Source: Vulcanimicrobiota bacterium (GTDB lineage: Bacteria; Vulcanimicrobiota; Vulcanimicrobiia; Vulcanimicrobiales; Vulcanimicrobiaceae). Taken from it: 50,700 nt of DNA. The notes beneath the pieces were generated by a model. The model saw only the letters and a program-made list of their open reading frames with translations, was not told the DNA's origin and did not search any database. This document shows positions 10,714 to 31,475 of this stretch, piece by piece. The DNA lies in assembly GCA_030041115.1 (NCBI GenBank), contig JASHOM010000071.1:1-50700 (forward strand), read 5' to 3'. Both the position numbers and the translations under genes were made by a program. How positions within the stretch are numbered: the stretch's first letter is position 1; every line of letters begins with the position of its first letter.

Positions 10714-12849
10714 TCACATCCAAATGACGATGGCAAGCGCGACGACGAGCGTCCCGAGCGCATATCCGACGTACGCGGGAAGCCGCCCGTGGTGCATGCG
10801 AGCTAAAAAGGAGGCGAACCTCCGGACGGCCTGGGCAACCGGCTCGGCGAGAACGCGGTCGGCAGAGAACACGTCTTCACGCCGGCGGCGGATCGCGGAG
10901 CGAAAATGCTCGTAGATCGTTTCGCGGTCGTTCTCGACCTCCGTCGGATTGAAGATCGCATTGAAGATCACGCGTACGGGATTCGAGAATCCGGTGGCCG
11001 TGTAGGTCATCTCGGGAAGTAACGACCGCAGGCCGCCGGCCCAGACGCGCGACCGGTCGATGGCGCGCCGGCGGGTCACCAGCGCTACCACGCCATACGT
11101 CACCCCCAGCAACGCGATGATGATGAACGTCAAATAGGTCGTCGACATGGCGAAGACGACCGGGTTGGCGCTTCCGCCGCGCAGCATTGCGACCCAACCG
11201 CGACCGGGCAATCCCATTCCGATTTGCGCGCCCAGCGCATGAAACGTCGCCACGAAATCCGGGGGAAGCGGATTCGGCGGCGCCGCCGGCCTGAAGAACT
11301 GGGGTATGAGGGCGGTCACGATCGTCCCCGACCCGAAGAAATCGGCCGCCGCGCGCCCGATGACGGGCAGCACGTACGTCGGCAGAACTCCGAGCCCGAT
11401 GCATTCGAGCGCGAGCAGCGCCATGCCCAGGCGCATCGTGCTCGGCGCCTCCCCGACTCGCGGCAGCGGCGTGCGCGCCTTTCCCAAGAACGTCATGCCG
11501 AAGGCTTTGACGAAGCAGGTCACGGCAAGCGCCGCCGTCAACGCGAGGATCGCGCCGCAGAGCGCGAAGACTATCCGCAGCCCCAGCGGAGAGAGCTCGA
11601 CCGCGCGCAGCAACGCCTGGAAGGTCAACCACTCGCTGACGAATCCGTTGAGCGGCGGAATGGCCGCAATGGCCAGCACGCCGACGAAAAAGAACGCCGT
11701 CGTCGCCGGCAAAATGCGAATCAATCCTCCGAGGCGATTCATCGAGCGGCCGCCCAACCTTGCGTCGAGCGTCGCGGCGCCGAGAAAGAGCAGTCCCTTG
11801 TACGCCGAGTGATTGGCGACGTGATAGATGCCGGCCGCAAAGCCAAGCGCCGCAAAGACGCTCTGATGCGCGGCCGTGAAGACGAAGGCCACTCCGAGAG
11901 CGGTAACCGCGATGCCCAGGTTCTCGACCGAGCTGTACGCCAGCATCACCTTGAGGTCGTCCTCGATCGTCGCGTAGAGAATTCCGATCAAGGCCGACGC
12001 CGCGCCGATCGCAAGCACGACGATCCCCTCGCCGGCGAACCGCACCGGAACCAACTCGACGTTGACCAGAACGATGCCGTACACGCCGAGATTGAGGATC
12101 ACGCCCGAGAGCAGCGCCGAGACGTTGCCGGGCGCCACCGGATGGGCGCGGGGCAGCCACGAGTTGACCGGCAGCAAGCCGGCCTTTACGCCGAAGCCGA
12201 AGAACGAAAGCATGAAGATCGTCCATGCCGCCACGGCCGAAAGGCCGCCCGCCGGCACGCCGAAGAGCAGCGAGCCGGATCCCGCTCGCGCAAGGAGCAT
12301 CGCGGCCATTGCGGCGATCGTTCCGGCTTCGCTCATCGCGAGCATGATGAACGCGGCTCGAACGTTGCGTTCCCTTCGCCATTCGTAGGCAACCAGCGCG
12401 GCGCTTGCGATCGCGACGACCTCCCATACGATGAAGAACGAAACGATGTCGCGGCAGATGAAGATCGCGATGATCGCGGCGAGCAGCACGCAGTACCAGG
12501 AGCTGAATGCGCGCAGCGAATACTCGTGCCGGTAGCGATCGAGATAGCGCAGCGAGTAGATGGACGTGGGGATGTAGACGAACGCCGCGACGCAGGCAAA
12601 AAGCGCGCCCAACGGCGTGGTGCCGACCGCAATCGGCCCAAGCACCGGAAACGACCAGAGCAAACGATCGCCGCTCGCGCCGCCCAGCAAGACCGCGCCG
12701 CCCGCAACGAGCGCGAGCGTGGCCGCAATGCAGCTCGCGACCAGCAACAGCGCCGGTGCGCGCCGCTCCGGCAGGACGAGCGCTACCACCGCACCGGCCA
12801 GCGCTACCGCAACCGCGATGCCGGTGAGCAGCAGAGGGAGCTGATTCAT
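10714..12849 (-). CDS. Ehr1: NuoL/HyfB-like antiporter-type membrane subunit
   Basis: Many TM helices; IVWEVVAIASAALVAYEW, GFGVKAGLLPVNSWLPRAHPVAPGNVSALLSGV, ANHSAYKGLLFLGA. ATG 12849 overlaps upstream gene. Confidence 0.85.
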   Translation of the reverse strand: MNQLPLLLTGIAVAVALAGAVVALVLPERRAPALLLVASCIAATLALVAGGAVLLGGASGDRLLWSFPVLGPIAVGTTPLGALFACVAAFVYIPTSIYSLRYLDRYRHEYSLRAFSSWYCVLLAAIIAIFICRDIVSFFIVWEVVAIASAALVAYEWRRERNVRAAFIMLAMSEAGTIAAMAAMLLARAGSGSLLFGVPAGGLSAVAAWTIFMLSFFGFGVKAGLLPVNSWLPRAHPVAPGNVSALLSGVILNLGVYGIVLVNVELVPVRFAGEGIVVLAIGAASALIGILYATIEDDLKVMLAYSSVENLGIAVTALGVAFVFTAAHQSVFAALGFAAGIYHVANHSAYKGLLFLGAATLDARLGGRSMNRLGGLIRILPATTAFFFVGVLAIAAIPPLNGFVSEWLTFQALLRAVELSPLGLRIVFALCGAILALTAALAVTCFVKAFGMTFLGKARTPLPRVGEAPSTMRLGMALLALECIGLGVLPTYVLPVIGRAAADFFGSGTIVTALIPQFFRPAAPPNPLPPDFVATFHALGAQIGMGLPGRGWVAMLRGGSANPVVFAMSTTYLTFIIIALLGVTYGVVALVTRRRAIDRSRVWAGGLRSLLPEMTYTATGFSNPVRVIFNAIFNPTEVENDRETIYEHFRSAIRRRREDVFSADRVLAEPVAQAVRRFASFLARMHHGRLPAYVGYALGTLVVALAIVIWM

Positions 12850-13541
12850 GCCGGCGGTTCCTGGCCGCAGAGCGCGCGCAGCGCGCCGATGATCGCCAAC
12901 GGCGGCGGCGGGCATCCGGGCACGGTCAAGTCGACCGGCACCGCATCGGCGGCGCCGCCGGCGGACATGACGGACGGCCCGAAAATGCCGCCGCTGGCGG
13001 CGCAGGCGCCGACGGCAAGCACGCGCTTGGGCGACGGCATCGCCTCGTACGCGACCTTGAGCGGGCCGGCCATCTGCCGAGTGACCGGACCGACGACCAA
13101 AAGAACGTCGGCCTGACGAGGCGTCGGCGTGATGAAGATGCCGAAACGATGGAGATTGTACGAGGGTCCGGTCAGCTGTGCCAGCTCGTTCAAACACGAT
13201 CCGCAGTCGCCGGCGTCGATGATGCGAACGTGAATCGAATGCTTGAAGCGCGAGCCGAATCGTTCGACGGCGTCCGGATGCGCCCAGCGGACGTCATGGC
13301 GCCACTCCTGCGCCGATTTACAGCGCATGCAATCGACGCATCGATCCGGCTGGACGCCGACGACTCGGTCCTGAGCTTCGAGCGCGCCGGTCGGACAGCG
13401 CGCGGCGATCTCCGCGGCCTGCGCCGGCGTCGAAAACTCCGTGGCGCGCGGCAAACCCGGGGACAAGCTCTCCGGCAGCGCCTCGGGCGCGGGGCCTTCG
13501 GTCAAGACGCCGGCGCGCAGACCGCGCCAGAACCAGCTCAT
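12846..13541 (-). CDS. Ehr1: NuoB/HyfI-like small subunit with ferredoxin-like N-terminal segment
   Basis: MSWFWRGL...CPTGAL...CVDCMRC...DAGDCGSCLNE...VGACAASGGIF...VPGCPPPP: all four NuoB-type cluster cysteines retained. Confidence 0.85.
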   Translation of the reverse strand: MSWFWRGLRAGVLTEGPAPEALPESLSPGLPRATEFSTPAQAAEIAARCPTGALEAQDRVVGVQPDRCVDCMRCKSAQEWRHDVRWAHPDAVERFGSRFKHSIHVRIIDAGDCGSCLNELAQLTGPSYNLHRFGIFITPTPRQADVLLVVGPVTRQMAGPLKVAYEAMPSPKRVLAVGACAASGGIFGPSVMSAGGAADAVPVDLTVPGCPPPPLAIIGALRALCGQEPPA

Positions 13542-18136: not shown

Positions 18137-18171
18137 TGTATCGAGAGAGTTTCTCCTAGCGAGCGCCGTCG

Positions 18172-18219
18172 ACCTAGGAGCCATCATCCCTGCCTGGGCG
18201 CTCGCGAGCTCCATCGCGT
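18172..18219 (-). promoter_or_regulatory. fluoride riboswitch (crcB motif), copy A, upstream of Ehr1 operon
   Basis: Minus strand CGCGATGGAGCTCGCGAGCGCCCAGGCAGGGATGATGGCTCCTAG: P1 CGCG/CGCG, pseudoknot GGAGC/GCTCC, P3 CCC/GGG followed by ATGATGGC. Confidence 0.82.
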
Positions 18220-18229
18220 GTGATCAGGT

Positions 18230-19003
18230 GTGAGTATACAGAATCCGCCGCTATGCGGGCAAGAAGGAATAGCCGCCCGTAGGGAAGGATTAGCGCCATC
18301 CGGTGTCAACGGTCCGAGCGTGCCGCACAACGTTGGGGACTTTGCGAAGACAATCGACGTGCTCACGCACGATCTTCCCGGATCCGCACGAAGCCTTCTG
18401 GCGCACGCTCCCGATTCGGCAAACGTAACCGCTGACGTAACGGCATGCCTTCTCGGTCGCGATCTTTGGTATCCGCAATTAGCGGCCTTTCGCGATTGGC
18501 TGCTCGAAAGCGGCGAGCGGCCGCACTTGTGGACTTTCGATTTTTGTCCGTCCGGCGCGTGGAACTCCGCGCCTTGGAATGCCCTGTCGCTGCCGGCGCG
18601 AATCTTGCGAGCGCGAGCCGGCGCGGTGGATCGCGAAGTGCAGGGGCACGTGTCGCCGGTGAGCCTCGCGATGAAGCGCCGCGAATTCGAAGCCGGGCTC
18701 GCCGAGCTGGAGCGAGCCGGAGGCTACGGCGCGGATGCGCGAAGGTTTGCAGCGGTCGCCGCGCACGCCGATTTGCGGACCGACCTCTCGTTGATCGAAA
18801 TTCTGTCGCACTGGCTGGCCATGCTGAAGCACCGCGAAAAAGTGCTTGCGGACCGGCACGCCACCGGCTTTGAAGTGCACGGGTATCGCGAGGCGTGCTC
18901 CGCGTGCAAGACGCGTTGGGGCATTCGGCCGTTCGAGCCTCGATGGGCTCCGCCGTTCCACCCGGGATGCCGTTGCTTCTCACAACCACGATTCACGAAC
19001 TAG
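18230..19003 (+). CDS. hypothetical protein with C-terminal CxxC...HPGCRC motif (start uncertain)
   Basis: 257-aa ORF ending YREACSACKTRWGIRPFEPRWAPPFHPGCRCFSQPRFTN, divergent from Ehr1. Confidence 0.6.
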   Translation: MSIQNPPLCGQEGIAARREGLAPSGVNGPSVPHNVGDFAKTIDVLTHDLPGSARSLLAHAPDSANVTADVTACLLGRDLWYPQLAAFRDWLLESGERPHLWTFDFCPSGAWNSAPWNALSLPARILRARAGAVDREVQGHVSPVSLAMKRREFEAGLAELERAGGYGADARRFAAVAAHADLRTDLSLIEILSHWLAMLKHREKVLADRHATGFEVHGYREACSACKTRWGIRPFEPRWAPPFHPGCRCFSQPRFTN

Positions 19004-19440
19004 GGAAGCGTCGTGAACCCGTCGATGAGAAGAACCGGACAGTGCGCGTACCGCGCGATCCGGTCGGAAACGCTGCCGATCAAGAACCTCGTCATGCCCG
19101 ACAACCCGCGCCTCCCTACGATGATCAAATCGGCCCCGACCTTTCGAGCGGTGTCGACGACCGCTTCCGCCGGATGTCCGCCCTCGACGACGACCAGCTC
19201 GCTTTGTATTCCGTTTTGCGCCGCGGACTCAAGCAGATCTCGAGCTGCCGCTTCGTAAAACTGGCGAGCGTCTCGACGCGAGCTGTGACGCTCGTCCTGC
19301 GTCTCGGCGTGCTCGGCGTGCCGGGCCACCGAGATTAGCTGTAGCCGTGCGCCAAAGCGCTTGGCGATCTCGGCTCCGTAACTGAACGCGCGCCGCGCGT
19401 GATCGGAGCCGTCCCAAGCCACGATGATATGAGAGAACAT
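19000..19440 (-). CDS. universal stress protein, UspA family
   Basis: MFSHIIVAWDGSDHARRAFSYGAEIAKRFGARLQLISV ... DLIIVGRRGLSGMTRFLIGSVSDRIARYAHCPVLLI. Confidence 0.93.
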   Translation of the reverse strand: MFSHIIVAWDGSDHARRAFSYGAEIAKRFGARLQLISVARHAEHAETQDERHSSRRDARQFYEAAARDLLESAAQNGIQSELVVVEGGHPAEAVVDTARKVGADLIIVGRRGLSGMTRFLIGSVSDRIARYAHCPVLLIDGFTTLP

Positions 19441-19446
19441 ATGTAC

Positions 19447-21366
19447 CTACCAATGTCGAATCGACGGGTAAAGAGCGAGTAACAGAATCGTGAATACCAA
19501 GATGTACGTGAGGTACGCGGCGATGACTCCGGATTGCGTCGCGCGGATGAGGTCCGAAATCCGCAGAATCGCCGCGAACATGCGCCGATAAAAGGGAAGA
19601 CCGATGCGCTCCTTGGCGTTGAGGATGACTTGCGTCGGATGAGCGTAGCCGGTTCCGCTGTACTGCGTCCACGCCCGATATCGCTCGCCCGACGTCCAGA
19701 CCGCCGCGCGGGCCGCCGGCGGACGAGCGAACAGCCGCGACAGCACCCAGAACAAGGCCGTGAATCCGGCAATGACTGCGGCCAAGCCGGGCGCGGATAT
19801 GGATGAGAAGCCGCTGAAGGCAGGTTGAACGAGCGGGACGGTTCCGACGATCGCCCGCATGACGCCGGTTCGGGCGATTGACGCGACGGCCGGCCCGAGG
19901 CGATCGAGGATCGGGCTCGAGAAAATTCCGGCTCCGACGATCGCCGACGATCCCGCCGCTAACGCCGTCAATCGCCATGGCGAACGGGTTTCGCGCGCTT
20001 GGGCGGCCTGCGGCGACCTCGGCGCGCCCAGCAATCCGGCGCCGAGCAGCTTCGTGACCGCGACGACGGCAACGCCGGCGGTGATACCGATGAGCGCACC
20101 GGCCACCGCAAAGATCACTTCGAAGGTAACGTTGCCGGTACGAAAGGCCTGCATGAACGACTCCAGCACAAGCCATTCCGCAACGAAGCCGGCCGTGGGC
20201 GGCAGCGCCGCGAGCGACATTGCACACAGCAGAACCGCAATCGTCGTCACCGGCATGACCCGCCCCAGACCTCCCAAACGATCGATCGACGCCGTCGAAC
20301 AGGCGCTCGATATCGAGCTGATCGCGAGAAAGAGCGTGGACTTGGCGAGCGCGTGGGCGAGAATCTGCGCGTATGCCGCCGCGATGCCCAGCCCAACGAG
20401 CACGTCCAAGTGCAGGATTTTTGCCGCTACCGCCACTCCCAGCGCCGCAAGGATGACGCCGCCGTTTTCGACGCTCGAATAGGCTGCCAATCGCCGCATG
20501 TCGCGTTGAATGACCGCCCACGAGATCCCGAGGAACGCCGAAAGCGCTCCGAGGACGATGGCGAGAACGGCGAACCATACCGGCGGATCCGGAAAGCCCA
20601 CGATGAATCGCACGACCCCATAGAAGCCGACGTTCAACGCACCTCCGGCCATGAGAGCCGCGACCAAAGAGGGCGCGGCGCGATAGCCGTACGGCATCCA
20701 GACCTGCAGCGGCAGCAAGCCGAACTTCGCGCCGAAGCCGATCAGCAAGAGCAGCAAGAGCACGCCGCGCACCGCGGCGTCGAGCGTCGCTCCGCTGGCG
20801 ACGACCGGACCGACGCCGAAGCCGTGTGCCGCATTTGCCAAGAAGAGCAGCGCGCCGATGAGGCACGCTCCGGCAACGTGAGTGATGCCGATCGTGAGAT
20901 ACGCAGCCGTGGCCGAATCGGAGTCGGTGCCGCAATATGCGATGGCCCAGAAAAAGACGAGCGCGAGAAGCTCCCACGCAAAGACGAAGAACAGCACGTC
21001 CCCGGCGCAGCAACACAACAGCGAAGCAAAGGCAATGGCGTTTGCCGTGGCGCTCGTCGTCCGGCCCGTGCCGCGTTCGTCCTTCGTCGCGGGACCTAGC
21101 CCGAAGATCGCGACGAGCGCCGCCACGACGCCGATGGTTCCGGCGAAAAAGGCCGCGGTGCCGTCGAAGTAGAGGACCGTATGAAGGTTCGCATCGCCGA
21201 ACGCAAGCGGAGTTGCGCCGAGCTGCCGAATGGACGCATCGCAGGTTGCTAGTGCTCCGAAGCCGAGAAAGACGAAGCCGGCGGTTCGTCCGGCGCGGCC
21301 GGGTAGAACGATGGCTGCCGCCGTTCCGACGAGATAGCACGCGAACGCAGCGATCAGGACGATCAC
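19447..21366 (-). CDS. Ehr2: NuoL/HyfB-like antiporter-type membrane subunit
   Basis: GTG 21366 (GTGA overlap); FVFAWELLALVFFW; GFGAKFGLLPLQVWMPYGYRAAPSLVAALMAG; HALAKSTLFLA. Confidence 0.83.
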   Translation of the reverse strand: MIVLIAAFACYLVGTAAAIVLPGRAGRTAGFVFLGFGALATCDASIRQLGATPLAFGDANLHTVLYFDGTAAFFAGTIGVVAALVAIFGLGPATKDERGTGRTTSATANAIAFASLLCCCAGDVLFFVFAWELLALVFFWAIAYCGTDSDSATAAYLTIGITHVAGACLIGALLFLANAAHGFGVGPVVASGATLDAAVRGVLLLLLLIGFGAKFGLLPLQVWMPYGYRAAPSLVAALMAGGALNVGFYGVVRFIVGFPDPPVWFAVLAIVLGALSAFLGISWAVIQRDMRRLAAYSSVENGGVILAALGVAVAAKILHLDVLVGLGIAAAYAQILAHALAKSTLFLAISSISSACSTASIDRLGGLGRVMPVTTIAVLLCAMSLAALPPTAGFVAEWLVLESFMQAFRTGNVTFEVIFAVAGALIGITAGVAVVAVTKLLGAGLLGAPRSPQAAQARETRSPWRLTALAAGSSAIVGAGIFSSPILDRLGPAVASIARTGVMRAIVGTVPLVQPAFSGFSSISAPGLAAVIAGFTALFWVLSRLFARPPAARAAVWTSGERYRAWTQYSGTGYAHPTQVILNAKERIGLPFYRRMFAAILRISDLIRATQSGVIAAYLTYILVFTILLLALYPSIRHW

Positions 21367-22103
21367 GAACGGCCTCTTGCCGCCGCATACCCGAGCGCGA
21401 CCCAAAGACCGTGTAGAATGGTCAGGGGCGACGGCGGCGTCCCGGGGATGAACACGTCGACGGGCAGCACGTCGCTGACCGGACCCAAAACGGCGATGCT
21501 GCGCGAAAAGATGCCGCCCGAACATGCCGACGTTCCCAGCGCAACGACCAGCTTGGGCTGCGGCATGGCCTCGTGGGCCGCAAGCAACGGCTGGGCCATC
21601 GCCCGGGTGACGACCCCGGTGACCACGAGCACGTCGGCATGGCGAGGCGTCGCGGTCAGGAAAATTCCCAACCGGTTTGCATCGTAGAACGGGTTGAAGA
21701 TTGCTTGAAGCTCCTGCTCCTCCGAGCCGTCACTGCCGGCGTCGACGTGACGAAGATGAACGGAGCGGCCCAACCCGCGCACTCGTTCGCGCAGCAGGGA
21801 TCGCACCTCGTCCGGGTTGCCCGCCACTTCGGCCAACTCGAACTCGTTTCGCATGCCGAACGCCTCGGGCGACCGGCGCGCGCACTCCCCGCATTGAAAG
21901 CAACGCTTGCGATCGACGCGCGCTCGCGCGCCGGCCGCGGTGAGCGCGCTCGACAGGCAGGCGCCGGCACCGAGAGCCTGCGCTTCGACGTTCGCCGGCA
22001 GGCTCTCGACCGCGCCGCGATAGGCGGGCGCCATCGAATCGGCCCGCAGCGGGTAACGCGTGCTGAGGATGCCGCGACGCAGACTATATCCGATCCAACT
22101 CAT
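21363..22103 (-). CDS. Ehr2: NuoB/HyfI-like small subunit lacking the four NuoB-type cluster cysteines
   Basis: MSWIGYSLRRG...CFQCGEC...HVDAGSDGSEEQEL...NRLGIFLTATPRHADVLVVTGVVTRAMAQPLL...ALGTSACSGGIF...VFIPGTPPSP. Confidence 0.83.
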   Translation of the reverse strand: MSWIGYSLRRGILSTRYPLRADSMAPAYRGAVESLPANVEAQALGAGACLSSALTAAGARARVDRKRCFQCGECARRSPEAFGMRNEFELAEVAGNPDEVRSLLRERVRGLGRSVHLRHVDAGSDGSEEQELQAIFNPFYDANRLGIFLTATPRHADVLVVTGVVTRAMAQPLLAAHEAMPQPKLVVALGTSACSGGIFSRSIAVLGPVSDVLPVDVFIPGTPPSPLTILHGLWVALGYAAARGRS

Positions 22104-23464
22104 CGGTCGACCTCGGACTGGCTGGCGGCAAACGAGTGCTCGATGAAGGAAAAGTCGGTAAAGATATTTCCCGGTAACGACGGGACGAAGAGCGGCCAGT
22201 TCGCGTACGACGGCGGTCGAATCGCTACCCGCATCAGGCGGCCGCCCTCGATTCGAACGAAGTAGATGAGCTCGCCCTGGGGAGCCTCCACTCGCGCGAA
22301 TCCGCAGCCGTCGCGCGGCGCGGCCTTCGCGAGCCAATCGCCCGGCGGATTGGCGCTGAGCGCATTTCGAATCAGCTGAAACGAGCGCTGAATTTCGGCC
22401 GCCCGTACGAGTGCTCGCGCGGCGGCGTCGCCGTTGCTTTCCAGCACCTCTTCGCCGGTCAGCGGCGTGTAGAAGTAATCGTCCCCGGTGCGAGCGTCGC
22501 ACGAAACGCCGCTGCCGCGCGCGACCGGACCCACCGCGCCGAAGCGAACGACCTGCTCGTAGGTGAGCTTGCCGGCTCCAATCAAACGATCGAGCAAGGA
22601 CTGCGTCGAAACGAGAGTTTGCACGACGCTGCGCGCATGTCGTTCGACCTCTTCCAATTCCCGGTCGCATGCTTCGCGCAGCGACGCGAGCACGTCGAAG
22701 CGAGTGCCGCCGACGCAGCAAACGCCGCGGCCGAAACGATGCCCCGTCCCGGCGGCGAGCAGACGATGCACCCGTTCCTTCGCGGCAAACGTTTGCGCCG
22801 AGCCGACCGACAGCGAACCGTCGTCGGCAAGCTTTCCTAACGAGTCGAGATGCTGCGCTACGCGTTCGAGCTCGACGAGCACCGAGCGGGCGGCGCGGGC
22901 GCGCTCGGGCACGTGCACGTCGGCCACCGTTTCGACCGCCCGGCAAAACGCGGCGGCGTGACTGGAGGCGGTCGCCCCGGAAACGTGCTCGGCGACGAAC
23001 GGCGCCAGTTCGAGCTCGACGCCCACGAAACGTTCCTCCAACCCACGATGCTTGAAGAACATCGACGGCGCCACTTCGACGAAGGTCTCGCCCGCCGTGT
23101 CGATCGTCCAACGCGCCGACTCGACGATCCCGGAGCGGATCGGCCCGTACAACACGGTCGAGATTTCCGGCGACTCCCGCTTTCGCAGTTCGTCCGGCGG
23201 CTCGACGCGGACCAGCGGCCGGTCGTCGCTCAGGTTTTCGAACTCGAGTCCGAAACGGTCGCGTATCTCCCGCTCGTACCACTCCGCCGCGGGCGTCACC
23301 GGAGTCAACGATTGTACGCTGCCGGCCGCATCGCTGCCGACGTCAACGAGCGAAGCACCGTTGGCGAAAACGTAGTGCAGTCGCGTCTGCCGACCGATCC
23401 GGTCGGCGAATATCCAGGCTAATCGCTCGCCTCCGGCAACGCGGCTGCGCGCTTGCGCGCTCAT
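22100..23464 (-). CDS. Ehr2: NuoCD/HyfG-like large subunit without [NiFe] ligands
   Basis: ATG 23464; AEWYEREIRDRFGLEFENLSDDRPL (NuoC-like); L1 position EHVSGATASSHAAAFCRAVE; C-terminus DFSFIEHSFAASQSEVDR with no CxxC. Confidence 0.83.
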   Translation of the reverse strand: MSAQARSRVAGGERLAWIFADRIGRQTRLHYVFANGASLVDVGSDAAGSVQSLTPVTPAAEWYEREIRDRFGLEFENLSDDRPLVRVEPPDELRKRESPEISTVLYGPIRSGIVESARWTIDTAGETFVEVAPSMFFKHRGLEERFVGVELELAPFVAEHVSGATASSHAAAFCRAVETVADVHVPERARAARSVLVELERVAQHLDSLGKLADDGSLSVGSAQTFAAKERVHRLLAAGTGHRFGRGVCCVGGTRFDVLASLREACDRELEEVERHARSVVQTLVSTQSLLDRLIGAGKLTYEQVVRFGAVGPVARGSGVSCDARTGDDYFYTPLTGEEVLESNGDAAARALVRAAEIQRSFQLIRNALSANPPGDWLAKAAPRDGCGFARVEAPQGELIYFVRIEGGRLMRVAIRPPSYANWPLFVPSLPGNIFTDFSFIEHSFAASQSEVDR

Positions 23465-24906
23465 TGCCGCCCCGCAAAGATAGCCGCCGCGTTCGTCAGG
23501 AGAACCCGCAAGGGCGGCGGCACGAACAATCCGAGGCCGAGCACGACGGCAAATGCCAGAAACATCGAAGCGATCGCTCCGACGTCGCGCTCGCCGCACG
23601 GCATGTCCGCGGGCGGCGACCCGACGGTTACTCGCGTCGTCCAGCGCATCAGACCCGCAAATGCCGTAACGAGCAATCCCAGGACGACCGCCGCCACGAC
23701 CCATCTGCCGCTGTCGAAGCCGCCGGAGAGCACCATGAGTTCGCTGCGGAACAATCCGAAAGGCGGAAGTCCCGCGAGGGCGAGCCCCGCAAAGGCGAAG
23801 AGCGTTCCCGACGCCGGAAGCACCGCAACGCCCCCGCTGATCTTCGAGATCTCGCGCGTGTCGAAGCGCGCGGCGAGGCGCCCGGCTCCGAAGAACGCCA
23901 GCGCTTTGGTCGCGGCGTGATTGATCACGTGGAGCAATGCGCCGGTCACGGCGAGCCGGGCACCGAAGGCGAGGCCGCAGGCAATGAGCCCCATGTGCTC
24001 GATGCTCGAATAGGCGAGCATTCGTTTCAGATCGCGCTGCTGCAGCAGGAAGAACGCGCCGACGAAAAGCGAGAGCAGGCCGACGACGAAGAACAAGTGG
24101 AGCGTCAATCCGCTGCCGGCCGCGGCGTTCGCGATGGCGGCAAAACGAACGATGACGTACAAAGCATCGGATAGCAGCACGCCGGAGAGCATGGCGCTGG
24201 TGGGCGTCGGCCCGGCACCGTGGGCATCGGGAAGCCAGGTGTGCATGGGCGCCAAGCCGGCCTTGGTTCCGAAGCCGATGAGCGCCAGCATGAAGGCGAG
24301 CCGCACGGCGTCCTGATTCAGTTTGCCGGCAACGCTCATGTACGCGGTCCAGCTCGGCGCGTAGTGTGCCGGGAGGACCCCGGTTCCGGCCGCATACATC
24401 ACCACGACTCCGAGCAAGCCGATCGCCAACCCGCACGAAGCGATCAAGATGTACTTCCAGGCCGCTTCGAGCGCATTTTCGGTGCCCTGAAGCCGGACGA
24501 GAAGTGCGGCCACGATCGTGGTGACTTCGAGCGCGACCCACATGCCGGCCAGATTCGTCAGCAGCGGAACGACCGTTTCGGCGCATGCGAAGGCGTTCGT
24601 GAGCGCGAGAAATTCGCGACGGTACGCCTCGTCTCCGTCGACCCCTATCGCCTCGACGCGCACGTACCACGTGCCGTAGAGCCCGACGGTGCCGTAGACG
24701 ATCGCAACCGGCAGCAGAAAAACGGCCGAAAGCGCGTCGAGAGGCCCCGCACCCGCGGCGGTGCGCACGACGGCCGCCAGTATGCAACCGGCGGTGACGA
24801 GACCGCCGGCGGCCGTGCAGACGCGTCCTATGCGCGAGGGAACGAGCAGCGTCACGAACGCGAGCACGAGAGGAACGGCGATCGCCGTTGCGATGATTGC
24901 GTTCAT
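23461..24906 (-). CDS. Ehr2: NuoN/HyfF-like antiporter-type membrane subunit
   Basis: GFGTKAGLAPMHTWLPDAHGAGPTPTSAMLSGVLLSDALYVIVRF; YSSIEHMGLIACGLAFG. Confidence 0.87.
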   Translation of the reverse strand: MNAIIATAIAVPLVLAFVTLLVPSRIGRVCTAAGGLVTAGCILAAVVRTAAGAGPLDALSAVFLLPVAIVYGTVGLYGTWYVRVEAIGVDGDEAYRREFLALTNAFACAETVVPLLTNLAGMWVALEVTTIVAALLVRLQGTENALEAAWKYILIASCGLAIGLLGVVVMYAAGTGVLPAHYAPSWTAYMSVAGKLNQDAVRLAFMLALIGFGTKAGLAPMHTWLPDAHGAGPTPTSAMLSGVLLSDALYVIVRFAAIANAAAGSGLTLHLFFVVGLLSLFVGAFFLLQQRDLKRMLAYSSIEHMGLIACGLAFGARLAVTGALLHVINHAATKALAFFGAGRLAARFDTREISKISGGVAVLPASGTLFAFAGLALAGLPPFGLFRSELMVLSGGFDSGRWVVAAVVLGLLVTAFAGLMRWTTRVTVGSPPADMPCGERDVGAIASMFLAFAVVLGLGLFVPPPLRVLLTNAAAIFAGRQ

Positions 24907-25574
24907 CCGCGCAACCGTTGGAAGACGGCGATGCCGGCGGCGTCATGCCGCTCGACCAGCGCCCGCACGAGCACGCCGAAGACCACGACGGCAACGAGCG
25001 CGTCCAAGAGCAGCAACACGCCGATGATGAACGGCAGGCCCGGAGCCAAAGTAACGGTCCCGAAGAACAGTCCGTCCTCGAGCGTGAGGAAGGCGATGAC
25101 TTGGGCCAGCGCGTTGGGCCGCAAGATGGCGACGAGGAAGCCGACGAAGACCATCGACAGCGCCGTTGCCAAGTCGGCCTGCGGCAAAAATGCCCCTTGA
25201 TGAAGCGGAAGCTGAATCGAGGTCAGTACGGCCAGGCCGATGAGCGCGCCGGCGAGCAAAAGCGACGCGAGCACGTTGATTCGAGCGGGAAGCTCGACGC
25301 GCGACGATATGTTGCGAACCAGTCCTTGCATGTAACGCGGCAACAGCGTCCCCTTGAAAACGATGGTGAGAACGGCCAAGAGCAAGAGATCCCAGGCCCA
25401 TCCCTCCGTCACGCCCACTCCAAAGCAGATGGCGGCTACGAGCCACGCTTGAATCGCATACACGCGAATGAACTCGGCGATGACCATCGATCGAAAAAGC
25501 GAAAGCTGCACGAGCAGCAAGAGCATCGCTATGGTTCCGGCAAAGGCTTCCGGAACGGTCAGCTGGTGCAGCAT
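24903..25574 (-). CDS. Ehr2: HyfE-like membrane subunit
   Basis: Hydrophobic 223 aa; FLTLEDGLFFGTV near the conserved LEN position; ATGA overlaps on both sides. Confidence 0.78.
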   Translation of the reverse strand: MLHQLTVPEAFAGTIAMLLLLVQLSLFRSMVIAEFIRVYAIQAWLVAAICFGVGVTEGWAWDLLLLAVLTIVFKGTLLPRYMQGLVRNISSRVELPARINVLASLLLAGALIGLAVLTSIQLPLHQGAFLPQADLATALSMVFVGFLVAILRPNALAQVIAFLTLEDGLFFGTVTLAPGLPFIIGVLLLLDALVAVVVFGVLVRALVERHDAAGIAVFQRLRG

Positions 25575-26533
25575 CAGCCGACGCCCACGACATAGGCGAA
25601 GATGGCTATCAGCGCCACGAGAAGCCCGGTCCCGATGAATTCGGTGATCTTGTAAAGCCGCAGCTTGGCGAAGGTCGTCTCGATGGCGGCGACCACGACG
25701 CCCAGGGCCAGCATCTTCGCAAAAAGACTAACGATCGCGAATGCCACCGATGCCACGCTGCCGCTCGACGAAAGGCCCATCGGCAGCAGCAACACGTTGA
25801 GGAAGACGGTGTAAAGCAAGAACTGCTTCATCGAGCCGCCCCATTTGTAGAGCGCCATCCAGGGGCCCGAATGCTCGAAGAGCCGCGCGTCGTCGATCAT
25901 TCCGAACTCGATCGTCGCGGACGAGCTCTCGATCGGAATCCGTCCGGTGTCGACCAGCAGCATCATGAAAAAGGCGGCGGCGGCCAGAACGTGCGCGGGG
26001 CGCAGTACGTCGGCGGCGGAATGTCGCAACGCGGCGTTCAGTGCGTACGGCAGGTCGGTGCCGGTAATGAAAGCAACCGAAAAGAAGACGAAAATGAGCG
26101 TCGGCTCGACCAAGACGCCGACCATGACCGCGCGACTGCTGCCGATGTGTGCGTACTGCGAGCCGGAATCCAACGCCGCGAGCGCCGTCGCAAAGCCGGC
26201 GAGCGCCAGAACGAACGCGCCGCCGAGAATATCCCCGTAGGTCGCGCCCGGAAGCGGATACGTCGTAAGAACCGGAATGAGCGTTGCAACCGTCGCGTAG
26301 CAGCCGCACGCGACGAACGGCGCCGCTCGAAAAATCCAAGACGACGGTTCCGGAATGATCGCCTGCTTCCGAAAGAGCTTGAGGATGTCCCGGTACACCT
26401 GAAATATCGACGGCCCGTAACGCCCCTGAATTATCGCTTCGAGCCGAGCGATGCAGCCGGTAAGCAACGGCGAAAGCAGCAGCAGGCACAAAACCTGCGC
26501 GGCTTGGACCAAAATCGGACTTAGGGTTGCCAC
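25574..26533 (-). CDS. Ehr2: NuoH/HyfC-like membrane subunit
   Basis: GTG 26533; ARLEAIIQGRYGPSIFQVYRDILKLFRKQ; LLVDTGRIPIESSSATIEFGMIDD. Confidence 0.87.
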   Translation of the reverse strand: MATLSPILVQAAQVLCLLLLSPLLTGCIARLEAIIQGRYGPSIFQVYRDILKLFRKQAIIPEPSSWIFRAAPFVACGCYATVATLIPVLTTYPLPGATYGDILGGAFVLALAGFATALAALDSGSQYAHIGSSRAVMVGVLVEPTLIFVFFSVAFITGTDLPYALNAALRHSAADVLRPAHVLAAAAFFMMLLVDTGRIPIESSSATIEFGMIDDARLFEHSGPWMALYKWGGSMKQFLLYTVFLNVLLLPMGLSSSGSVASVAFAIVSLFAKMLALGVVVAAIETTFAKLRLYKITEFIGTGLLVALIAIFAYVVGVG

Positions 26534-26562
26534 GGCGATCTACTCGACGTTGGACAATCTGT

Positions 26563-26606
26563 CTTCACGAATGCTCCGACAAAAGCGGTTGCTTTGTCAG
26601 GAGCCA
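26563..26606 (-). promoter_or_regulatory. putative expression-platform hairpin of copy C
   Basis: Minus strand GCTCC-TGACAAAGC-AACC-GCTTTTGTC-GGAGC; its 5' arm is the aptamer pseudoknot strand. Confidence 0.6.
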
Positions 26607-26663
26607 TTGGCCTTTGCAGCAGTTTGCGCTGCCGAAAGCAGCTCCGGCGGACTCCTCCGCCGC
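26597..26663 (-). promoter_or_regulatory. divergent fluoride riboswitch (crcB motif), copy C, upstream of Ehr2 operon
   Basis: Minus strand GGCGGAGGAGTCCGCC ... AAAGGCCAATGGCTCCTG: P1 GGCGG/CCGCC, AGGAG/CTCCT pseudoknot; extra internal hairpin GCTGC-TTTCG-GCAGC; P3 not canonical. Confidence 0.6.
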
Positions 26664-26706
26664 TATTGCCTTTCGAGTGCTTTGCGAGCGATACCTTTGC
26701 AATCCG

Positions 26707-27009
26707 TCAACGTTTCGATCGCCGCGACCTCATTCCAAATCCAAGCATCAAGGACGCCATCGCCAACGCAAGCGGAACTTCTGCGATCAGGATAAAGCGC
26801 AGCAGCATCGCGTCGTGGCGTAAGGCTGCGCCGAATGCGATCCCGAGCAACATGAGGCCAAACGTGGAAATCGCTCGAACGGTAAGACGTCCGGCCGCGC
26901 GACCTCCGTCGAGATGCTTGCAGTCGGGTGCGTCGCACAGCTCCCAGCTATCGGGGCTTCGCAAATGCGGGCGCGGCGGCGTGACGCCGTGCAATGAGTC
27001 CTGCTTCAT
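26707..27009 (-). CDS. small membrane protein (~2 TM) preceded by fluoride riboswitch copy D
   Basis: SD GGAGGAATC-ATG; AISTFGLMLLGIAFGAAL and LLRFILIAEVPLALAMASLMLGFGMRSRR hydrophobic segments; not CrcB-like by eye. Confidence 0.7.
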   Translation of the reverse strand: MKQDSLHGVTPPRPHLRSPDSWELCDAPDCKHLDGGRAAGRLTVRAISTFGLMLLGIAFGAALRHDAMLLRFILIAEVPLALAMASLMLGFGMRSRRSKR

Positions 27010-27020
27010 GATTCCTCCAC

Positions 27021-27073
27021 GCAGGAGCCATCAGCCGCAGCCTGCGACCAATCACGGCGAGCCCCATCGCCCG
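27021..27073 (-). promoter_or_regulatory. fluoride riboswitch (crcB motif), copy D
   Basis: Minus strand GGGCGATGGGGCTCGCCGTGATTGGTCGCAGGCTGCGGCTGATGGCTCCTGCG: P1 GGCG/CGCC, pseudoknot GGGGC/GCTCC, P3 GTCGC/GCGGC. Confidence 0.87.
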
Positions 27074-27169
27074 ATCGGTCGCACTTCGCACAAGGTTGAG
27101 CGGGTCCTCTACGTAACGCCGCTTCGACGAACAGGTTTGCGCGATATCGACGCAAATATAAAGGACCGT

Positions 27170-27222
27170 ACGGCGATGGAGCTCGCCCGCGAGCGTCGCA
27201 AACCGGCGACTAACGGCTCCTG
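27170..27222 (+). promoter_or_regulatory. fluoride riboswitch (crcB motif), copy E, upstream of MutS-like pair
   Basis: CGGCGATGGAGCTCGCCCGCGAGCGTCGCAAACCGGCGACTAACGGCTCCTGG: P1 GGCG/CGCC, P3 GTCGC/GCGAC, pseudoknot GGAGC/GCTCC. Confidence 0.85.
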
Positions 27223-27241
27223 GATTACGGGGACACCATCG

Positions 27242-28771
27242 ATGACTTTCCACAGCATCCTTTACGACCGATCGGCTCCTGCGGTCGCCGACATGGGCGC
27301 GACGCCCGAGTGCATTCGCGACCTCAACATCGATCAGATCATCGATGCGATCGTGCGGGGAAGGGAGGAGTACGATCTCGCGCCCTTCTTTCTGATGCCG
27401 CTGGCCACGATGGAAGCCGTCGGCTACCGGCACGAAGTCATGCGCGATCTCCAAGAAGGCGCCGTGCTCGAGTGCGTCGCCGAGTTCGCCGATGCGATGC
27501 GATCGACGCGGAAGATCCTCGCGCACTCCGCCAAGCTCCGAACTCACCAACAGACGCGCTTGTTTCTCGATGCCGTGCGTGCGTACGACGCGGCCGTCGT
27601 TCGTTTGTGCGAGAAACTCGAGCGCTCCAGCGCCAAATCGGCGGGGCTTCGCGCTTTCTGTGCGTTCCTCGCCGCGTACGTGCAGTCCGAGCAATTTCGG
27701 GCTCGAACTTCGGCTTCCGGCGCGCTGCTCCGGGAGCTCGATGCGATTCGCTATTCCGTTCGCATCAAGGAAAACACCGTCACGGTGGGGCGCTACGAGG
27801 ACCGTCCCGACTATAGCGACGAGGTCGCGCGGACGTTCGAGAAATTCAATCAAGGGGAAGTGCGCGACTACCTCGTCGCCGGCCGCGATTCCATCGAGAT
27901 GAATCACGTCGAGGAACGCATCCTCGCGCTGGTGGCGCGGCTGTTTCCGGCGACGTTTGCGAAATTGACGGAATTCGAAGAGCATCATCGCAGTTTCGTC
28001 GACGCGACCGTGACGCGGTTCGACCGCGAGATACAATTCTACCTCGCGTACCTCGAATACATGAACGAATTTGCGGCCTCGGGCTTGTCGTTTTGTTATC
28101 CGCACGTCTCGACCGACGGCGGCGACAGCGCCGTTCGGGACACCTTCGATGCGGCTCTCGCCAAGAGGCTGCGCGACGCCGGGCGTGAGGTCGTGGTCAA
28201 CGACTTCGCACTGACCGGCGGGGAACGCGTCCTCATCGTATCGGGGCCGAACCAAGGGGGCAAGAGCACCTTCGCTCGCACGTTCGGTCAGGTGCACCAT
28301 TTTGCAAGCATCGGTTGCCCGGTCGCAGGCAGCGCGGCGCGGATCGCCCTGTTCGACCGGATCTTCACGCATTTCGAGCGGGAGGAGCGGGTCGAAAGCC
28401 TTCGCAGCAAGCTGGAGGACGATCTGCTCCGGATGCGCGACATTTTGCGCGACGCAAGCGAACGCAGCATCGTCATCTTGAATGAAATCTTTGCATCGAC
28501 GACGCGCAGCGACGCCTATTGGCTCGGACGGCAGATGCTGGCCAAGATCTTGAGGATCGGAGCGCGTTGCGTCTGCGTTACGTTCCTCAACGAGCTGGCG
28601 CACGGAGACGATCGGATCGTCAACATGGTGAGCACGGTGGTTGCGGACAACCCCGCTGTGCGAACGTTCAAGGTGGTCCGGCGCGCCGCGGGCGAACCTT
28701 CGTATGCCGCCACGCTCGCGGAAAAGCACCGGCTGACGCACGATTTGGTAAAAGCTAGAATACGATCATGA
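27242..28771 (+). CDS. MutS-like ATPase (MutS domain V type), first of pair
   Basis: ATG 27242 (MTFHSILYD); Walker A GPNQGGKSTFARTFGQ, Walker B SIVILNEIFASTTRSD. Confidence 0.88.
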   Translation: MTFHSILYDRSAPAVADMGATPECIRDLNIDQIIDAIVRGREEYDLAPFFLMPLATMEAVGYRHEVMRDLQEGAVLECVAEFADAMRSTRKILAHSAKLRTHQQTRLFLDAVRAYDAAVVRLCEKLERSSAKSAGLRAFCAFLAAYVQSEQFRARTSASGALLRELDAIRYSVRIKENTVTVGRYEDRPDYSDEVARTFEKFNQGEVRDYLVAGRDSIEMNHVEERILALVARLFPATFAKLTEFEEHHRSFVDATVTRFDREIQFYLAYLEYMNEFAASGLSFCYPHVSTDGGDSAVRDTFDAALAKRLRDAGREVVVNDFALTGGERVLIVSGPNQGGKSTFARTFGQVHHFASIGCPVAGSAARIALFDRIFTHFEREERVESLRSKLEDDLLRMRDILRDASERSIVILNEIFASTTRSDAYWLGRQMLAKILRIGARCVCVTFLNELAHGDDRIVNMVSTVVADNPAVRTFKVVRRAAGEPSYAATLAEKHRLTHDLVKARIRS

Positions 28772-30294
28772 CGCTCAAGGCGCACCTGATGTACGCCGAC
28801 CGCGATTTTTCATTTCGCAGCGTCGTGCCGATCACCGAGGGCGAGGTCGCTGCGGATCTCGAGCGAGATGCGCTCGTCTCGGCGATGGCCGCCGGCGATC
28901 CCGTCGTTGCGGAAGTCGCGACCGAGGCGCTCTGGAACGGCCTGACCGATTTGGCCGCGATCCGGTACCGTCAAGCTGCGCTCGGCGACGCCGTCGCGAA
29001 TTCCGCCGCGGTTCGAGAGCTGTACGAACTTGCCGTCGAGGCGCTCGAAGCCGAACGCCGCGCGTTTCTGCTCGGGCTCGTCGGGCGAACGCCGGGCTCG
29101 GTACTCTTCCGGGCGGTGGAGCTGCTCGAATTATTGGAGGAGCGGCTGCGCCGGCTACGGGCCTTCGCCGACAAAAATGCGGCCCGGTTCGGGTCGGTTG
29201 CCTTCACCAATTTGTTCGACATGCTCCGGCGCGAGCTCGGCGACGATTACCTGGGAATCGTTCGAGAGCACTTGGGAGACTTGCGATTTACCGACGGCGT
29301 GTTGTCGAGCGCGCGCTTGGGTCCCGGCAACAAGGGAGTGGACTACGAGCTTCACCGCATCGTCCAGTCGGAGGGCTGGCTTCGCCGCGCGTTTGGGGCC
29401 CGCGGGCAGCAGGCGTATTCGTTTAGGATTCCGGATCAGGACGAGGGCGGCGCGCGCGCGCTGGCAGCCCTCAAGGATCGAGGAATAGCGCGCGTCGCCG
29501 ACGCGCTCGCGCGCTCGATGGATCACATCCTGTCGTTCTTCAAGATGCTCAGGACGGAGCTCGCCTTCTACGTCGGATGCCTCAACATCCGCGAAGCGCT
29601 CGCCGCGGCGGGCGCACCGGCCTGCACGCCTACGCCGTGCTCCGCGGCCGACGCAAAGCGCAACGCCACCGGACTCTACGATCCGTCGCTGGCGCTGACC
29701 CTGGGACGCTCCGTCGTGCGAAACGATCTCGCGGCCGACGGTAAGGCGCTCGTGCTCGTCACCGGAGCAAATCGCGGCGGGAAATCGACGTTTTTGCGCA
29801 GCCTCGGGCTTGCCCAGCTAATGATGCAGTGCGGAATGTTCGTCGCGGCCGAACGCTTCGAGGCCAGCGTCTGCCGGGGAGTCTTCACGCACTACAAACG
29901 TCAGGAAGACCCGACGATGCAAAGCGGTAAATTCGACGAAGAGCTCGTTCGAATGAGCGCGATCGTCGATGCCGTGGTGCCGGGTTCGCTCGTGCTCCTC
30001 AACGAGTCCTTCGCCGCGACCGACGAACGCGAAGGCGCGGAGATCGCTCATCAGGTCGTCACCGGGCTGATCGATTGCGGCGTCATCGCGTGCTTCGTAA
30101 CGCATCAGTACGAACTAGCCGAACGCTTCATGACCGAGGGCCGCACGGACGTCCTCTTCCTGTTGGCCGAGCGGCGAGACGACGGATCGCGCACGTTCCG
30201 AATCAAACCCGGACGCCCGCTGGAGACGAGCTACGGCAAAGACATTTACGATCGCATCTTCGACGACGCCGGCGCGACGACGGTCCCGCCCTGA
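28768..30294 (+). CDS. MutS-like ATPase, second of pair
   Basis: ATGA overlap with the first; Walker A GANRGGKSTFLRSLGLAQLMMQCGMFV, Walker B GSLVLLNESFAATDEREGAEI, CFVTHQYELA. Confidence 0.88.
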   Translation: MTLKAHLMYADRDFSFRSVVPITEGEVAADLERDALVSAMAAGDPVVAEVATEALWNGLTDLAAIRYRQAALGDAVANSAAVRELYELAVEALEAERRAFLLGLVGRTPGSVLFRAVELLELLEERLRRLRAFADKNAARFGSVAFTNLFDMLRRELGDDYLGIVREHLGDLRFTDGVLSSARLGPGNKGVDYELHRIVQSEGWLRRAFGARGQQAYSFRIPDQDEGGARALAALKDRGIARVADALARSMDHILSFFKMLRTELAFYVGCLNIREALAAAGAPACTPTPCSAADAKRNATGLYDPSLALTLGRSVVRNDLAADGKALVLVTGANRGGKSTFLRSLGLAQLMMQCGMFVAAERFEASVCRGVFTHYKRQEDPTMQSGKFDEELVRMSAIVDAVVPGSLVLLNESFAATDEREGAEIAHQVVTGLIDCGVIACFVTHQYELAERFMTEGRTDVLFLLAERRDDGSRTFRIKPGRPLETSYGKDIYDRIFDDAGATTVPP

Positions 30295-30908
30295 CTTCGT
30301 CCGATCGCAGCGGCCCGGCGTACCGCGATCGAGGTCCGCGCAAGACTGACCGCGCCGCGACCGATCAAGCTGCGCATCGCGCGCTCGACGTGCTCCACCA
30401 GCGCCGAGCGCAAGCGCTGCTCGAGCTCGGCGATCCATCCGTCGATCTCCGCAAAGGAGCAGGCCGCGTCCGGAAGGATCTCCCGCTCGTCGTCCACCTC
30501 TATCCGCGGCAACGCAATTCTTCGCGGCGGGCGGGGCGGCTTCGCGAGATCGCCGGCTCCTTGCGCGGCGGCTCGGACGAAGCGCTCCTGCGCTGCGAGC
30601 AAGGCTTCCGCATAGAATCCAAAGCGCGCCCGGAACCGCACGCCGGCATTTTCGAACGCCATCTGAGCGCAACGCATGGCCACCAGCTCCGAATGGCTGC
30701 GGGTCAGAGCCGCGCTCAAGTCCGGAGCGAGCGTGCCCAGCGAGAGGAAATGGTCCGCGAGCTCTTCGCGCGCCCGCCGCACGGGCTTCGCAACGAAACG
30801 ATCGAGCGTCGAAAGATCGGTTCGACAGCCGGACTCGAGCACCACGCGCGCCGCGGCTTCATCGTCGCGAAGGATCTGCCAGGCGGCGTTGACACGGTCA
30901 GCCGTCAT
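30246..30908 (-). CDS. helical hypothetical protein, second gene under riboswitch copy B
   Basis: 220 aa; ATG 30908 overlaps the upstream gene end by 11 nt; convergent with MutS-like 2 (49-nt overlap). Confidence 0.65.
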   Translation of the reverse strand: MTADRVNAAWQILRDDEAAARVVLESGCRTDLSTLDRFVAKPVRRAREELADHFLSLGTLAPDLSAALTRSHSELVAMRCAQMAFENAGVRFRARFGFYAEALLAAQERFVRAAAQGAGDLAKPPRPPRRIALPRIEVDDEREILPDAACSFAEIDGWIAELEQRLRSALVEHVERAMRSLIGRGAVSLARTSIAVRRAAAIGRSQGGTVVAPASSKMRS

Positions 30909-31230
30909 CGAGAACGATCGCCGCGTCGTCGAAGAACAGGTCCTCTACGGTTTCGTGCTGACGCAAGCGAGTTTTGAGCTCGGCAATTCGCGCTTGCAGC
31001 TCCTTGGCCCGGCCCAAAATGACCTCGCGGCCGGCAAAGGCGCCCGCGTTGCGCATGCGCTCCGTTTTGAGCTTGCGCATCGATTCCTGGAGCTCGAAAT
31101 GCTCGCTGGCATAATGGCGCTCGATTTCGTAAAGCCTGCCGCTGCGCTCTTGGAGTTTCTCGTTCGCCCACTGCAGCCGAGCCTCGAGATCTCGGCAACG
31201 CTCCTGCAGTTCGGCGACTTGATCGGCCAC
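30898..31230 (-). CDS. coiled-coil protein, first gene under riboswitch copy B
   Basis: GTG 31230; MADQVAELQERCRDLEARLQWANEKLQERSGRLYEIERHYASEHFELQESMRKLK heptad-rich. Confidence 0.65.
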   Translation of the reverse strand: MADQVAELQERCRDLEARLQWANEKLQERSGRLYEIERHYASEHFELQESMRKLKTERMRNAGAFAGREVILGRAKELQARIAELKTRLRQHETVEDLFFDDAAIVLDDG

Positions 31231-31248
31231 GACCTAACCTCACTCTCG

Positions 31249-31299
31249 TTGAGGAGCCATCAGCCTTTTTGGCGCTTGTTCGGCGAGCTCCATCGCCCT
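31249..31299 (-). promoter_or_regulatory. fluoride riboswitch (crcB motif), copy B, upstream of coiled-coil pair
   Basis: Minus strand AGGGCGATGGAGCTCGCCGAACAAGCGCCAAAAAGGCTGATGGCTCCTCAA: P1 GGCG/CGCC, P3 GCC-AAAAA-GGC, pseudoknot GGAGC/GCTCC; very close to the canonical aptamer. Confidence 0.9.
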
Positions 31300-31361
31300 C
31301 GGAAACGTTGCTTCGCGGAGGAATAGAGAACGATCCTGCGAATTTCGTTCGTGTTAGTTTA

Positions 31362-31446
31362 CGGGCGATGGAGCGCCGCCTTCGACCGCCGCGTCAGAAG
31401 CGTCGTCCCCGACGGGACGATGCGGCGATGCGGCTAATGGCTCCTT
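31362..31446 (+). promoter_or_regulatory. fluoride riboswitch (crcB motif) with extended P3, copy F, upstream of NUDIX-dynamin operon
   Basis: CGGGCGATGGAGCGCCGCC ... CGCCGC[GTCAG...CCCGACGGGACGAT]GCGGCGATGCGGCTAATGGCTCCT: P1, long P3, GGAGC/GCTCC pseudoknot. Confidence 0.78.
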
Positions 31447-31475
31447 TCTCGAGATGCGATCTTGGGAGGAACCTT

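Follow-up and report, generated by a model that had tools for sequence, protein, structure and literature searches.

The element at positions 26670-26591 on the minus strand of the window (the whole stretch of DNA analysed, 50,700 nucleotides long), hereafter copy C, is very probably a fluoride riboswitch that represents a distinct natural subtype and acts as a translational ON switch for the genes of the Ehr2 complex. This appears to be the best explanation on the basis of its homology, its subtype, the covariation at positions 6 and 38, an added hairpin and a stem predicted to trap the Shine-Dalgarno sequence. Copy C varies a familiar switch and is no sensor of something new. Fluoride riboswitches, including translational ones, are already known, and so is their link to hydrogen-lyase-like operons.

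Homology and architecture of copy C

The Rfam fluoride model (RF01734) aligns with copy C from end to end at 20.5 bits, which lies under the gathering cut-off of 34 bits and does not make it a member by threshold, with an E-value of 0.25 over the whole window and of 0.0013 over a stretch of 261 bases. The original prediction had proposed to compare this score with those of the other copies, and among the six fluoride matches in the window (39.4, 32.2, 28.6, 26.2, 22.9 and 20.5 bits) copy C comes out lowest, its score being dragged down by an insertion of 18 nucleotides. With a second covariance model, built from 30 related leaders and leaving copy C out, copy C is the top match in the window at 51.3 bits (E-value 4.9e-14). 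Since this leave-one-out model recovers it, copy C is homologous and no chance match, and the non-homology that the low Rfam score might suggest is ruled out.

In the numbering of the T. petrophila aptamer and on the minus strand, the stem P1 of copy C consists of CGGCG (26662-26658) and CGCCG (26649-26645), with 100% standard pairs in 31 relatives. Inside P1 lie G at position 6 (26657), A at position 7 (26656) and the 5' strand of the pseudoknot, GGAGUC (26655-26650). The inserted hairpin GCUGC-UUUCG-GCAGC (arms 26642-26638 and 26632-26628) is located between P1 and P3 and is followed by AAAC and by P3 itself, which has three pairs including one U·G (GCU, 26620-26618, with GGC, 26612-26610). 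The 3' junction reads GGCCAAUGGC (26612-26603), the 3' arm of P3 through U48 reads GGCCAAUGGCUCCU (26612-26599), and the region holds C38 (26609), A39, A40 and U41, with U48 at 26599. The 3' strand GGCUCC (26605-26600) completes a pseudoknot of six pairs. Both the hairpin (GCTGC-TTTCG-GCAGC in the DNA, 26642-26628) and the atypical junction are present as the original prediction had described them. G6 with C38 stands in for the canonical A6·U38 tertiary pair, and copy C keeps A40, U41 and U48 along with the 6·38 pair in its G·C form. The odd 3' junction is accounted for in this way, because it is one half of a compensatory swap from A6·U38 to G6·C38.

Pairing in P1, P3 and the pseudoknot is standard in 96.9% of cases over the 31 relatives, with a covariation score of 0.328 compared to 0.135 in shuffles, and the four pairs of the homologous hairpin are standard in 94% of cases compared to 48% after shuffling and no more than 57% when the partners are shifted, in alignments fitted to the model structure, which favours such pairing figures. 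The hairpin columns contain 48 cells changed on both sides, that is, they co-vary, and in the pseudoknot one side only varies within the subtype. For these counts, a model-based alignment replaced the MAFFT alignment, which had misplaced the hairpin of one genome (G025). The published Rfam-based covariation motif for the fluoride riboswitch lists P1, pseudoknot and P3 (PMC13273304), and the swap at positions 6 and 38 provides covariation support beyond this listing.

Orthologues of the Ehr2 hyfC gene with 73-80% identity occur in four genomes of the family. In three of their four leaders, G replaces A6, C replaces U38 and an added hairpin of other sequence is present; in the fourth genome (G034), the variant adjoins hyfC in opposite orientation. 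The claim of a divergent aptamer upstream of Ehr2 is borne out by the orthologous leaders, which share P1, the pseudoknot, the hairpin and the alternative stem described below.

A subtype with G·C at positions 6 and 38

The solved structure of the T. petrophila aptamer shows a reversed Watson-Crick pair between A6 and U38 (PMC11586693). We searched 149 genomes of the phylum with a pattern in which positions 6 and 38 were left free and obtained 68 aptamers, with A-U in 36, G-C in 30, A-C in one and U-U in one, counts that are not independent, as kinship among the genomes inflates these and the class counts below. Both exceptions represent a third aptamer form, in which the junction is shifted. 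This form is found in the leaders of Ehr1 hyfC (window 18227-18168, minus strand, and loci L015, L016 and L017), has a short P1 and carries the junction GGGAUGAUGG or GGGACGAUGG with A at position 37. Pair 12/43 is U12 with A43 in 29 of the 30 members of the G-C class, copy C being alone in having G43, and mostly C12 with G43 in the A-U class. The gap between P1 and P3 spans 26-35 nucleotides in all 30 G6·C38 members versus 13-21 nucleotides in the A-U class. Judged by these sequence features, copy C belongs to a discrete subtype characterised by G6·C38, a U12-R43 pseudoknot pair and an extra hairpin between P1 and P3. This subtype, with swapped tertiary pair and added hairpin, is conserved in Eremiobacterota.

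A pattern scan across many phyla found at least 118 stretches with G-C at positions 6 and 38. Few of these aptamers have the added hairpin, about four in 108 among the matches listed according to a simple length test, and the G6·C38 members of Eremiobacterota are longer throughout than those of other phyla. An aptamer of Paracidobacterium acidisoli (L099:6320-6385) has G6·C38 and an apparent added hairpin outside Eremiobacterota. U-A at positions 6 and 38 is also present in loci of other phyla, and L171:4945 (plus strand), L172:4008 (minus strand) and further loci show U6·A38, which adds another compensatory combination for this tertiary pair.

The A6·U38 tertiary pair beside the fluoride pocket, which has been described from structures, is hence interchangeable with G·C in nature. 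Such a G:C pair of reversed Watson-Crick geometry is known from the Levitt pair 15-48 of tRNA (PMC3902895). The two are alike in being reversed Watson-Crick tertiary pairs of the G-C kind, in different RNAs, and by this analogy the geometry of G6·C38 would be of the Levitt type. We know of no structure of a G6·C38 fluoride aptamer.

Hairpin-bearing relatives score up to 34.3-38.4 bits on the Rfam model. As these relatives are of the same kind as copy C, the cut-off splits one class and is a matter of threshold, not of any structural feature. The subtype explains many real fluoride riboswitches of Eremiobacterota that lie under the Rfam cut-off. In the literature searched, which took in few subscription journals, we found neither the G6·C38 class nor the added hairpin described.

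Predicted expression platform

Downstream of the aptamer, GCTCCTGACAAAGC (26604-26591), AACC and GCTTTTGTCGGAGC (26586-26573) form an alternative stem of 13 bp with two bulged bases, which as a whole reads GCUCCUGACAAAGC-AACC-GCUUUUGUCGGAGC (26604-26573, minus strand). The 13-bp stem capturing the pseudoknot strand had been proposed before and holds up, with one bulged base per side. Its stability is -15.9 kcal/mol (z = -3.85), matched by none of 200 shuffles, and it takes up the 3' strand of the pseudoknot (26605-26600). The earlier description lacked a Shine-Dalgarno-like GGAG (26577-26574) which pairs with the captured CUCC. The best nested fold has CUCC engaged with a GGAG-like sequence downstream in 29 of 31 leaders, compared to downstream pairing of CUCC in 46% of shuffles, and in most leaders this partner lies 5-10 nucleotides ahead of the start codon. 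Sequestration of the Shine-Dalgarno sequence and the ligand-bound fold are mutually exclusive in 29 of the 31 leaders as well as in copy C. Since the pseudoknot and the alternative stem share CUCC, fluoride binding should free the Shine-Dalgarno sequence.

The stem could also be read as mainly a transcription terminator or attenuator instead of a translational device. It is long and, at -15.9 kcal/mol, stable, and terminators are a common platform of fluoride riboswitches (PMC13273304). However, no U tract follows the stem (ATTCGTGAAGACAG), and its 3' arm is an AGGAG or GGAG 5-10 nucleotides before a start codon in nearly all relatives. We consider a terminator very unlikely and reject it on the missing U tract.

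In copy C, GGAG lies about 40 nucleotides ahead of hyfC, which is an unusual spacing. A putative leader ORF of 15 codons (GTG...TAA, 26521-26568, minus strand) bridges this distance, starting 5 nucleotides past GGAG and ending 12 nucleotides inside hyfC; its sequence is not conserved. Three species from a different genus (L038, L039 and L041) have an ORF of the same layout, 12 codons long and ending in GTGA on hyfC. This arrangement suggests translational coupling from the leader ORF to hyfC. For the translational switch, we thus propose that without fluoride the CUCC strand would pair with the GGAG Shine-Dalgarno sequence and block it, and that with Mg2+-fluoride the pseudoknot would claim CUCC and release GGAG. 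The short putative leader ORF would then be translated, and ribosomes finishing it could start on hyfC, leading to production of the Ehr2 complex. Copy C probably turns on this complex-I-like membrane complex at high fluoride.

Strength of the copy C aptamer

The original prediction had suspected a weakened aptamer, and the computed features agree with this for copy C only. Its Rfam score is the lowest among the members scored, its P3 has the three pairs with U·G mentioned above, and the U12·G43 wobble in its pseudoknot is found in one of the 30 G6·C38 members, copy C itself. In addition, its competing nested fold surpasses the binding-competent one by 17.6 kcal/mol, which is the worst value among 32 members (median 4.7 kcal/mol, second worst 10.0 kcal/mol), in folding sums that do not include the pseudoknot and Mg2+ and ignore co-transcriptional folding. 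Taken further, the same features, i.e. the unique wobble, the short P3, the large gap to the next worst competing fold and the place at the bottom of the class, could mean that copy C is a decaying riboswitch which folds too poorly for good fluoride binding, leaving Ehr2 effectively off or constitutive in this genome. Nevertheless, copy C has P1, the pseudoknot, G6·C38, U41, A40·U48 and the SD-trapping stem in intact form, the Ehr2 operon retains open reading frames, and the folding energies disregard the pseudoknot, Mg2+ and co-transcriptional folding. Moreover, a working aptamer has a wobble at one end of its pseudoknot (PMC8004769). We therefore regard decay as unlikely; according to the folding models, copy C is probably weaker than its orthologues, among which L043 and L048 are examples of good folding, yet not dead.

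Fluoride as the probable ligand

The genes following 26 hairpin-bearing members of the subtype encode HyfC (11), Na+/H+ exchangers (nine), DUF190 proteins (five) and a phosphoesterase (one), and crcB lies downstream, directly or behind DUF190, in five loci. For 70 G6·C38 aptamers of other phyla among the matches listed, the following genes include Na+/H+ exchangers (19), dynamin-like proteins (11), CrcB (nine), CLC (four), HyfC (four), SAM synthetase (two) and enolase (one). Members of the subtype thus adjoin genes for fluoride resistance, and because it precedes crcB, DUF190-crcB, Na+/H+ exchangers and, outside the phylum, CLC and enolase, fluoride is almost certainly its ligand. In G034, a canonical aptamer stands before the orthologous hyfC and the variant controls a phosphoesterase gene on the other strand, so that canonical and variant aptamers look interchangeable.

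An altered specificity had been considered for copy C. Other riboswitches have variant classes with changed ligands, and positions 6, 38 and often 39 depart from the Rfam consensus, so the junction changes might be changes of specificity. The changes at 6 and 38 are, however, compensatory (A6·U38 to G6·C38), and A40, U41 and U48 are retained. Hairpin-bearing leaders with the same swap stand directly before crcB or DUF190-crcB, G6·C38 aptamers in other phyla are followed by genes for CrcB, CLC, enolase or exchangers, and the two aptamer types swap before hyfC. The subtype displays neither uncompensated pocket changes nor a new gene context. A ligand other than fluoride is extremely unlikely and is rejected on the compensatory change and the fluoride-regulon context, and this part of the original prediction finds no support. 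A more speculative and fairly unlikely idea is that hairpin-bearing G6·C38 aptamers are a functionally separate sensor, in which the hairpin or the Levitt-type pair would shift the fluoride threshold or make the RNA respond to a second input as well, be it pH, temperature or a protein. A single genome could then distinguish two levels of fluoride by means of its two kinds of aptamer.

The Ehr2 operon and its surroundings

The first gene of the complex under copy C encodes a HyfC/NuoH-like membrane subunit (PF00146, 25574-26533). It is followed in the operon, all on the minus strand, by genes for HyfE-like (24903-25574), HyfF (23461-24906), NuoC/D-like (22100-23464), NuoB-like with a ferredoxin remnant (about 21363-22094) and HyfB (19447-about 21400) subunits. 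The complex had been called cysteine-depleted, which is true of the NuoB-like subunit: all four NuoB-type cluster cysteines are gone in the window (DAGSDGSEE, GTSAC, PGTPP), at odds with a hydrogenase of the Ech/Hyf type, whereas the Ehr1 paralogue (12849-13541) retains them (DCGSC, GAC, PGC). In the NuoB-like subunits of the four Ehr2 orthologues, the cysteine set is incomplete, with most missing. Because the cluster cysteines are missing, Ehr2 can hardly pass electrons via the NuoB cluster. Our supposition is that, under fluoride stress, it transports ions or serves in regulation; it may be a complex-I-like assembly that is redox-silent and controlled by fluoride. Fluoride stress is in this way tied to a complex-I-like complex whose NuoB cluster is not usable.

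The region 18168-31453, about 13 kb long, contains six fluoride aptamers, which control two Ehr complexes, one MutS-like pair, NUDIX-dynamin genes and a small ORF of coiled-coil type, and the same gene set around fluoride aptamers recurs in related genomes (L028, L030 and L032-L034). Upstream of copy C lies a unit (27080-26707, minus strand) that combines a fluoride aptamer of the canonical A6·U38 type (27080-27015) with a membrane-like ORF of 100 aa (27009-26707). Another canonical copy is located at 31306-31244. The aptamer before the MutS-like pair (27163-27229, plus strand) has C for the pocket U41, a broken P3 and an added hairpin, and is possibly degenerate. A coiled-coil-like ORF of 110 aa (30898-31230, minus strand), for which the Pfam search gave no match, directly follows the best fluoride aptamer, and in L028 and L030 its homologues immediately precede the leader of Ehr2.

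Comparison with known systems

'Formate hydrogen lyase' operons associated with fluoride riboswitches are known (PMC11139923; PMC8004769). They resemble the Ehr2 operon in placing genes for a hydrogen-lyase-type membrane complex under a fluoride aptamer, but the NuoB-like subunit of Ehr2 lacks the four cysteines and makes a working hydrogenase unlikely. We found no treatment of fluoride riboswitches together with ribosome binding sites and hydrogenases in the literature searched. Translational fluoride riboswitches from Pseudomonas syringae and Burkholderia pseudomallei are cited in PMC13273304 and, as far as described there, share with copy C a control without intrinsic terminator. Copy C would differ from them in that the CUCC of its pseudoknot is itself the anti-Shine-Dalgarno sequence and in that a putative leader ORF precedes hyfC. 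With the crcB motif of RF01734, the subtype has in common P1, P3, the six-pair pseudoknot, A40·U48 and U41, a platform that competes for the pseudoknot strand, and a regulon of crcB, CLC, exchangers, enolase, HyfC and MutS. It differs from this motif by G6·C38 in place of A6·U38 and by the hairpin between P1 and P3, the members bearing this hairpin scoring mostly near or under the Rfam cut-off (20.5-38.4 bits).
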